Assembly: GCF_030718935.1 (NCBI RefSeq)
Contig: NZ_CP132194.1
Location: 1,054,001-1,118,000, forward strand
Source: Psychrobacter sp. M13
GTDB taxonomy: Bacteria; Pseudomonadota; Gammaproteobacteria; Pseudomonadales; Moraxellaceae
Reading direction: 5' to 3'
DNA: 64,000 bases
The notes under the pieces were generated by a model. It saw only the letters and a list, made by a program, of their open reading frames with translations. It ran no database searches and had not been told where the DNA came from. Made by a program: the position numbers and the translations under genes. Position 1 is the stretch's first letter. Each line of letters opens with the position of its first letter. Below, piece by piece: positions 31,710 to 33,159 of the stretch.

Positions 31710-32885
31710 ATGGATTTTATTTTTATATATTATGCTGTGCAGCTACTGGCAGGATTTGTGATTTTTGTCACCATTTGGGGCTGGATACGCTTAGATAACT
31801 GGTGGGTGCGAGCGGTTGAATTCCCTCGTATTCAAATACTGGTACTGGGTGCTAGCGCTTGGCTTTGCATGTTGCTTTTTGGGCCGTTAGTTTCTGGATT
31901 AGAGTGGCAAGCTAAAGAGTGGACATTGTTCGTCGCCCTTAGCGTCTCGTTAGGCTTTCAGCTGCGTATGGTATTGCCTTATACGCGACTGTGGAAAAAA
32001 GAGGTACAAGAAGCTAAAGTCAAAGCGGATGGCGATAGCACTCATCAGCTCAAAATCATGGTCTCAAACGTACTAACCCCTAACAATGAGACTCAAAAAC
32101 TCATCGATTTAGTCAATGAACAGCAGCCTGATATTTTGATTACCCTTGAGAGTGATAAAAAGTGGGAGCAAGCGCTAAGCGTCATTGAAGCTGATTATCC
32201 TTATACGGTCAAAGTGCCTTTAGACAATCTATACGGCATGCATCTATACTCTAAGCTTGAGCTTATAGATCCTCAGGTTAAGTATCTAATGATCGATGAT
32301 ATCCCCTCTATTCATAGTCAAATGCGCTTGCCAAGTGGCCGAGTCATTTGGCTATATTGTCTGCATCCGATGCCGCCAAGTCCAACTGAAGCTGATAAGT
32401 CAACGACTCGTGATGCTGAGCTGCTAATGGTCGGGCGTCATATCTATGATAATGATCAGACTGCGATTTTAGCGGGCGACTTGAATGATGTGGCGTGGTC
32501 AAAGACGACGCGGCGTTTTCAGCGTATCTCAGGCCTACTTGATCCACGTATTGGCCGCCATTTTATCAATACCTTTCATGTTAAGTATCCGTTCTTGCGC
32601 TGGGCACTTGACCATATCTTCCATAGTGCCTGCTTTACGGTAGTGGATATCAAACGCATGCCATCAATCGGTTCTGATCATTTTCCTGTATTAACTACCT
32701 TGCAGTACGAGCCTGAAGAGATTAGGCAACAGGAGCAAAACGCGCCGACAAAAGATGCAGAGGACATTAAAGAGACGGAGAATAAAATTAAGGAGGGCAA
32801 AAAGGAAGGTCGTAAGGTTTCTAAAGAGCATGCAGAGGAGACTATAAAAAGGGGTCAACAAGACGCTAACTGTAAATCTGCTTAA
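31710..32885 (+). CDS. Endonuclease/exonuclease/phosphatase-family membrane protein
   Basis: A 391-residue protein. Its N-terminal part (about 1-95) has three hydrophobic segments. It is followed by an EEP (DNase I-like) domain from about residue 108 (LKIMVSNVLTPNNETQKLID). Conserved points are the metal-binding Glu in ILITLESDKKWEQAL, the AILAGDLNDVAWS motif, ALDHIFHS and the C-terminal SIGSDHFPVLTTL. These residues suggest an active phosphodiesterase or phosphatase; the substrate is unknown. The C-terminal 50 residues are highly charged (KEGKKEGRKVSKEH) and probably disordered. The start lacks a strong ribosome-binding site. Confidence 0.82.
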   Translation: MDFIFIYYAVQLLAGFVIFVTIWGWIRLDNWWVRAVEFPRIQILVLGASAWLCMLLFGPLVSGLEWQAKEWTLFVALSVSLGFQLRMVLPYTRLWKKEVQEAKVKADGDSTHQLKIMVSNVLTPNNETQKLIDLVNEQQPDILITLESDKKWEQALSVIEADYPYTVKVPLDNLYGMHLYSKLELIDPQVKYLMIDDIPSIHSQMRLPSGRVIWLYCLHPMPPSPTEADKSTTRDAELLMVGRHIYDNDQTAILAGDLNDVAWSKTTRRFQRISGLLDPRIGRHFINTFHVKYPFLRWALDHIFHSACFTVVDIKRMPSIGSDHFPVLTTLQYEPEEIRQQEQNAPTKDAEDIKETENKIKEGKKEGRKVSKEHAEETIKRGQQDANCKSA

Positions 32886-32929: not shown

Positions 32930-32947
32930 TGTAAGCAAAAGCGTACA
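32930..32947 (+). promoter_or_regulatory. Candidate GacA/UvrY upstream activating sequence
   Basis: TGTAAG-CAAAAG-CGTACA matches the published GacA box TGTAAG-N6-CTTACA at 11 of the 12 defined positions. Its centre lies about 65 bp before the predicted start of the candidate RNA at 33004. The biological assignment is inference. Confidence 0.5.
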
Positions 32948-32991
32948 GACAAAGGGGTCTTTAGCGTCTAGGTGAGTAGGAGTGATTGATC

Positions 32992-32997
32992 TATAAT
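32992..32997 (+). promoter_or_regulatory. Candidate -10 element (TATAAT) of the small RNA
   Basis: A perfect TATAAT with no good -35 hexamer at 16-18 bp spacing, as expected for an activator-dependent promoter. It is followed seven bases later by the predicted transcript start. Confidence 0.45.
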
Positions 32998-33003
32998 ACC
33001 TCC

Positions 33004-33159
33004 TATCAGCACAAGGAGCGTTAAGGATAACGTGTTGAGGCGTTGGCAGCATTAGCTAAGCTTACGTTTATGACTTAGGATAAGTCAGCAAGGATGAGAT
33101 AATAATTATACGATAAACTGCCTAAAACCCAAACCTATTGCCCAAGGTTTGGGTTTTTT
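33004..33159 (+). ncRNA. Candidate Csr/Rsm-type CsrA-sequestering small RNA
   Basis: About 155 nt without a credible open frame and ending in an intrinsic terminator. Four GGA motifs with CsrA-like context occur: ACAAGGA (GGA at 33015), TTAAGGATAA (33025), CTTAGGATAAG (33078) and GCAAGGATG (33092). Two sit in the loops of perfect small hairpins: CGTTA-AGGA-TAACG at 33019-33032 and TGACTTA-GGA-TAAGTCA at 33071-33087. GGA in hairpin loops, a GacA box and a terminator are the hallmarks of RsmX/Y/Z and CsrB. The 5' end is predicted only. The alternative is a leader, or the 3' region of the upstream gene. Neither csrA nor a gacA-type gene lies in this window. Confidence 0.5.
33124..33159 (+). terminator. 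Strong intrinsic terminator
   Basis: A perfect 13-bp stem (AAAACCCAAACCT / AGGTTTGGGTTTT) closes an 8-nt loop and is followed by six T. It ends the candidate small RNA. It could also terminate transcripts from the gene ending at 32885, about 240 bp upstream. Confidence 0.92.

Follow-up and report, generated by a model that had tools for sequence, protein, structure and literature searches.

The window analysed here, i.e., a 64,000-nt stretch of DNA from Psychrobacter sp. M13, contains a candidate small RNA gene, termed sRNA1, in the gap that follows a gene which we take to encode an EEP-type (endonuclease/exonuclease/phosphatase-like) protein. The features of this locus are collected in Table 1, together with two further loci of the same genome. 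An earlier note on this gap had described a GacA/UvrY-type box matching at 11 of 12 positions (TGTAAG-N6-CGTACA), a TATAAT hexamer without a −35, four GGA motifs within 80 nt, a 13-bp intrinsic terminator and the lack of an open frame, and all of these were found again. The four GGAs lie at 33015, 33025, 33078 and 33092 and span less than 80 nt, and no sigma-70 hexamer pair was found by a promoter scan at the sRNA1 promoter. The two GGA-loop hairpins of the earlier note lie exactly where it had placed them; however, the first one, the inner apical hairpin CGTTAAGGATAACG at 33019-33032, proved to be the shorter apical stem of a compound hairpin that holds both the first and the second GGA.

Table 1. 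Features of the sRNA1 locus and of the two other boxed loci in the Psychrobacter sp. M13 genome (window positions, except for the last two rows)
Feature	Position	Strand	Remarks
EEP-type protein gene (presumed)	31710..32885	+	conserved upstream neighbour; outside the RNA
GacA/UvrY-type upstream activating box	32930..32947	+	TGTAAG-CAAAAG-CGTACA; 11 of 12 box positions match
Promoter linker element TTTAGCGTCTAGG	32960..32972	+	consensus TTTnGCnnCTA; at the expected place of the −35 hexamer; conserved
−10 hexamer TATAAT	32992..32997	+	44 bases past the box
sRNA1, about 154 nt	33005..33158	+	conserved block starts 7 nt past the −10; both ends predicted, the 5′ end as the A of ATCAGCAC (33005)
Hairpin 1	33006..33038	+	holds GGA 33015-33017 and GGA 33025-33027
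Hairpin 1, outer stem, 7 bp	33006-33012/33032-33038	+	forms in all 25 sequences of the alignment
Variable middle region	33039..33070	+	shortened in the window RNA
Hairpin 3, TGACTTAGGATAAGTCA	33071..33087	+	carries GGA (33078) in its loop
Fourth GGA (33092), AGCAAGGAT	33088..33096	+	unpaired in the consensus fold
Intrinsic terminator	33124..33159	+	13-bp stem 33124-33157; loop ATTGCCCA at 33137-33144
Second boxed RNA (sRNA2, L165)	G000:C1:223470-223820		about 280 nt (ends set by us), 8 GGAs, perfect box, terminator
Third boxed RNA (sRNA3, L166)	G000:C1:420655-421016		about 290 nt (ends set by us), 6 GGAs, perfect box, terminator

According to the window ORF list, no ORF of at least 60 aa touches 33005-33158. 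Those of at least 20 aa are a 52-aa antisense frame and a 28-aa sense frame, the latter starting only inside the terminator, and sense frames beginning within the RNA body reach no more than 11-13 codons. A frame of at least 20 codons is absent in 65 of the 101 homologues that were parsed. The fold of the sRNA1 transcript has a z of −2.5, and two overlapping terminator-like sites were found at its end (0.4 in shuffles). The terminator carries an A-run 5′ and a T-run 3′ of its stem and may serve both strands; surA, on the minus strand, comes next after it in many relatives.

Within the window, a box with at most one mismatch occurs once; of 100 shuffled versions, 23 have such a box as well, and at least two GGA hairpins per 150 nt are present in 259 of 6385 overlapping plus-strand windows. 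Taken singly, neither the box nor the hairpins exceed chance, but their combination does, and most of all the fact that it is conserved. The frequency of the box in the shuffles is what speaks for a promoter-terminator relic or a functionless chance arrangement, a reading whose probability is next to negligible given the conservation and covariation over 104 of the 105 genus genomes and into other genera.

The figure of 104 combines blastn, which alone located sRNA1 in 92 of the 105 genomes, a covariance model built from regions of an alignment of 25 distinct sequences, which found it in 102, and inspection, which added G078 and G074; an apparent loss from these last two genomes was rejected, as the RNA is present in both. 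In the remaining genome, G092, the stretch ends shortly past the beginning of the EEP gene, too early to tell whether the RNA is absent. The loci collected number 105, i.e., 103 from the genus and two from the genus g29, and 101 of them were parsed by script, the RNAs of G029, G026, G002 and G088 being read by eye as present but kept outside the 101-locus counts; as many of these genomes are closely related, the counts are not independent. A pattern scan of named genomes gave 76 matches, 71 of them titled Psychrobacter; of the others, those in Halieaceae, Motilimonas, Beijerinckiaceae and a Firmicutes MAG were rejected, having no box in the 150 bases upstream, and the fifth is a g29 locus. A covariance match in G242 (E 0.05), with only two GGAs and no box in the 130 bases upstream, was likewise dismissed as chance. 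Two records call for separate mention: the short RNA occurs on more than one contig of genome G062 / MAG SW22112_bin_15 (L083, L125, L143, L352), by true duplication or by a mixture of strains, and BMPS01000018.1 (L123), titled Streptomyces cinereus JCM 3040, is probably mislabelled, its counterpart G317:C18 belonging to this gamma-proteobacterial family.

In the 25-sequence alignment, GGA sites 1 to 4 are kept in 25, 25, 23 and 25 sequences, respectively, the third being replaced by TTA in L007 and by AAA in L023; outside these two cases, the first GGA is lost in L330. Before the terminator, the 101 parsed loci contain four GGAs in 68 cases, five in 25, three in 3, six in 3 and seven in 2. 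The stems are supported by covariation: with a fold of 37 pairs, composed of the RNAalifold consensus and three pairs that we added, both-sided change was observed in 17 pairs, where shuffles gave 7.4 and slid partners no more than 5, and 96.7% of the cells are paired across the 25 sequences. The RNAalifold consensus alone gives both-sided change in 15 of 34 pairs. Such changes affect two of the three pairs in the inner stem of hairpin 1 and all eight outer pairs of the middle region, which in most of the 25 aligned relatives forms a longer stem.

The promoter is more rigid at some positions than at others. Box positions 2-4, 6, 13 and 15-17 are identical in all 101 parsed homologues and A5 is kept in 98, whereas the outer positions vary (T1 in 69, A18 in 35), and the G at position 14 seen in the window is shared by 20. 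The number of box mismatches is zero in 10 homologues, so that the own box of sRNA1 is exact in only these 10 loci, one in 61 and two in 30. The distance from the box to the RNA is 55-57 nt in 101 of 101 loci, and the −10 follows TAnAAT, with each fixed position in 99-100 of 101. Between the box and the −10, much of the sequence outside the linker drifts; within the linker, T33, C36, C39, T40 and A41 (counted from the box start) are present in every parsed homologue. A similar linker was recognised by eye at the other two boxed loci (L165, L166) and in sister genera (L285-L301), in the forms TTTnGCnnCTA, GACGCTTTnGCGACTTA and, in a sister genus, GCGnATAG, or GCGnMTAG across genera. The earlier note had named as a refuting condition that the GGA motifs and the box are not conserved in close relatives; both are conserved in the genus while the spacers drift, which supports its reading.

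The EEP gene ends 45 bp upstream of the box in the same orientation, and of the 79 sRNA1 stretches tested, 74 contain an EEP match (60 of 65 distinct genomes), as would suit a 3′UTR-derived or cis-acting element of this gene, or of the downstream gene, instead of a free-standing sRNA gene. However, sRNA1 has its own fixed promoter set, and in L075 the EEP match lies on the opposite strand, both of which argue against a 3′UTR origin. Nor is sRNA1 beside the EEP gene in four genomes: in G043, G006 and G087 that gene lies elsewhere, without such an RNA in the 1.5 kb behind it, and in G031 an EEP match is absent from the stretch around sRNA1, which makes sRNA1 an independent gene. A downstream cis element is disfavoured by the lipoprotein-like gene downstream, which gave matches only in L001 and L002 among the stretches searched. 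Hence, we regard the 3′UTR or cis-element explanation as highly improbable.

The same neighbour was used to follow the RNA outside the genus. In g29, two loci read directly have the box, the linker, four GGAs and a terminator, and a third matches the covariance model. The EEP gene was found in 20 of 30 other family genomes searched, and a boxed GGA-rich RNA stands beside it in all 14 picked genomes of g23, which is probably Acinetobacter, judging from the family and the number of species, as well as in a single genome from each of g25, g26 and g28. In these 17 genomes, the EEP-linked boxes lie 34-213 bp past the end of the match with 0-2 mismatches (by eye), the RNAs have 6-10 GGAs in the stretch counted, and 16 of the 17 start with ATC(A/G)(A/G)C, like the window RNA. 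The 14 g23 genomes were picked out of 175 and each has at least one exact box somewhere, the EEP-linked box itself not being exact in 9 of them. Beside the EEP genes of g27, g35 and the g29 genome G316, no such RNA was seen.

The earlier note had spoken of the Csr-antagonist RNA of this species. The Csr/Rsm-type part of that statement is supported, but the definite article is not: a box with at most one mismatch occurs at just three sites in the 3.2 Mb genome, and all three head GGA-rich structured RNAs, of which sRNA1 is one. The stretches over sRNA2 and sRNA3 (390 and 420 nt) fold with z values of −5.2 and −4.7. By blastn, sRNA2 has a match in 100 of the 105 genomes, 85 of them nearly full length and 15 partial; sRNA3 has some match in 91 of 105, many covering only the box or terminator and some lying at the other RNA, so that this is not a count of orthologues. 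Exact boxes number 205 in the 105 genus genomes, compared with 4 for a reversed control. RNAs of the sRNA3 type occur in clusters of two or three copies, spaced by about 0.3 to 5 kb, in ten species stretches (L264, L265, L267-L272, L274 and L275, from G078, G077, G044, G046, G038, G039, G006, G087, G037 and G074), and sponge RNAs would seem to have multiplied in some Psychrobacter species.

As for the protein partners, csrA is present in 57 of 57 genomes, with one copy in each of 36 genus genomes; the single copy of the window genome scores above the cut-off. The genome also encodes a GacA-like protein, which at 240 bits (NF007018; second best protein, 110 bits) falls below the curated cut-off of 280, and a BarA/GacS-like hybrid kinase, whose best piece, at 374 bits, falls below the NF008318 cut-off of 890; at loose E-values, both models match in 12 of 14 control genomes. 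With NF007018 at 1e-45, which also matches 3 of the 14 controls, 75 of 80 chosen family genomes gave a GacA-like gene. No exact box was found in any searched genome of g24, g27, g28, g30, g32 and g37, six of the 16 family genera, and GacA-like genes are present in these genera; in g36, one of seven genomes has an exact box, and that genome gave no GacA-like match. Thus, the box and the GacA-like gene are not strictly coupled.

The terminator offers a different reading of the RNA. Terminators could be parsed in 101 of 102 rows, and the loop is GCCC in 99 of these 101, the two others looking like misplaced hairpins; GCCC is kept even in one clade and in g29, where the stem has another sequence. 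This constancy, together with the C-rich stretch that many relatives also have in the middle stem, could mean that sRNA1 is an ordinary base-pairing sRNA, with the GCCC loop as seed and the GGA motifs incidental. However, nothing in the RNA body is as constant as the GGA motifs, which sit in conserved hairpins, and what sRNA2 and sRNA3 share with sRNA1 is the box, a linker and the GGAs, but not the GCCC terminator loop, which makes an ordinary base-pairing sRNA very unlikely. Together with the linker in the −35 place, the loop is a conserved feature that the Csr/Rsm class does not explain. One could speculate, and we hold this to be rather doubtful, that Moraxellaceae GacA promoters require a second operator of fixed sequence (TTTnGCnnCTA; GCGnMTAG), read by GacA or a co-activator in the −35 place, and that the window RNA is bifunctional via a selected GCCC loop for base pairing or protein binding.

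Taken together, the locus has the palindromic box, several GGAs, a non-coding body with a terminator, and a host genome with csrA, gacA-like and gacS-like genes. We are highly confident that the gap encodes a GacA-activated, CsrA-titrating RNA of the Csr/Rsm type, about 154 nt long, whose expression and whose interactions with GacA and CsrA we infer from sequence. This sponge reading is drawn from the conservation, the covariation, the promoter architecture, the partner genes and the three near-perfect boxes that all head GGA-rich RNAs. Against it count the incomplete co-occurrence of box and GacA-like gene, the gacA and gacS scores below cut-off, the EEP genes without an RNA in g27, g35 and G316, the GGA losses in L007, L023 and L330, and the density of GGA hairpins, which is not rare in the window; four GGAs are also at the low end for the class. 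In the proposed mechanism, a GacS/BarA-like hybrid kinase would phosphorylate GacA, which would then bind to the box (32930) and, jointly with the conserved linker, start transcription from the TATAAT of a promoter without a −35. The RNA would display its four GGAs, two in the compound hairpin, one in the loop of the second hairpin and one single-stranded, and these may bind CsrA dimers and so titrate CsrA away from its mRNAs. The two longer RNAs with the same type of promoter (C1:223470 and C1:420655) would act on the same CsrA pool.

The RsmX/RsmY/RsmZ class of GacA-controlled RNAs, which titrate RsmA/E, is characterised by a palindromic GacA box before the −10, GGA hairpin loops, a terminator, a length of about 100-180 nt and several paralogues per genome. 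The Pseudomonas RsmX, RsmY and RsmZ resemble the window RNA in the GacA box, the −10, the GGA loops, the terminator, the length and the paralogues, but the window RNA differs from them in its stems, in having no Rfam Rsm match and in its conserved linker; that of Pseudomonas reportedly shows little conservation. The enterobacterial CsrB/CsrC have many GGA hairpins, so that sRNA2 and sRNA3, with their eight and six GGAs, are closer to them than the window RNA, which is much shorter and has four, and no Rfam CsrB match was found at any of the three loci. The search with the Rfam models of RsmX, RsmY, RsmZ and CsrB, which the earlier note had suggested as a check, gave no match to the window RNA, either at gathering or at E up to 10. 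Matches of rliH, rimP and mir-971 over the terminator were below the gathering scores and were rejected, as were those of Thr_leader, RefA9, MIR9486 and IRES_Bip to sRNA2 and sRNA3, where none of the four Csr/Rsm models matched at E up to 1 and no Rfam match remained. The window RNA family is another member of the known Csr/Rsm sponge principle, outside all Rfam families.

Among published systems, Pseudomonas rsmX-2 is described, in the part of the source consulted, with a UAS, GGA motifs and GacA dependence (PMC7911923). The earlier note knew of no described member in this family of bacteria, but predicted ones from Acinetobacter are already in print. According to an excerpt of PMC5568370, citing Kulkarni 2006, RNAs predicted to regulate RsmA/CsrA lie at ACIAD0018/0019 and ACIAD2750/2751 of Acinetobacter ADP1, and the part of PMC7366521 consulted, also citing Kulkarni 2006, tabulates [RsmX, RsmY, RsmZ] for A. 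baumannii, the brackets meaning that they were found by genome inspection. The 2006 prediction is repeated for A. baylyi in a passage of PMC12442408, and in the available portion of a paper dealing with A. baumannii GacA, CsrA is mentioned but a Csr RNA is not (PMC12070743). The Acinetobacter RNAs, all of them predictions, come from the same bacterial family as the window RNA. A GacA-affected RNA of PMC2375449 was considered and set aside as a different RNA, without a box in the portion consulted, and the relevant parts of PMC9927453 and PMC11882849 mention Psychrobacter or Acinetobacter nowhere but among the references. No report of a Psychrobacter Csr-antagonist RNA was found in the full-text literature searched, a collection outside which most subscription papers lie and in which the matching papers deal, judging by their titles, with other organisms, and no experimentally tested Csr RNA of the Moraxellaceae is announced in the titles or abstract starts among the matches listed.

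For Psychrobacter and, by way of the neighbouring gene held in common, for further genera of the family, the result is a testable set of Csr-antagonist RNAs outside the Rfam models. Gac/Csr regulation would thereby reach a genus whose members live mostly in the cold. Given the conserved linker, it can be tested what these promoters recognise apart from GacA, and those species in which one of the longer RNAs stands in two or three clustered copies may serve as a natural experiment on dosage.
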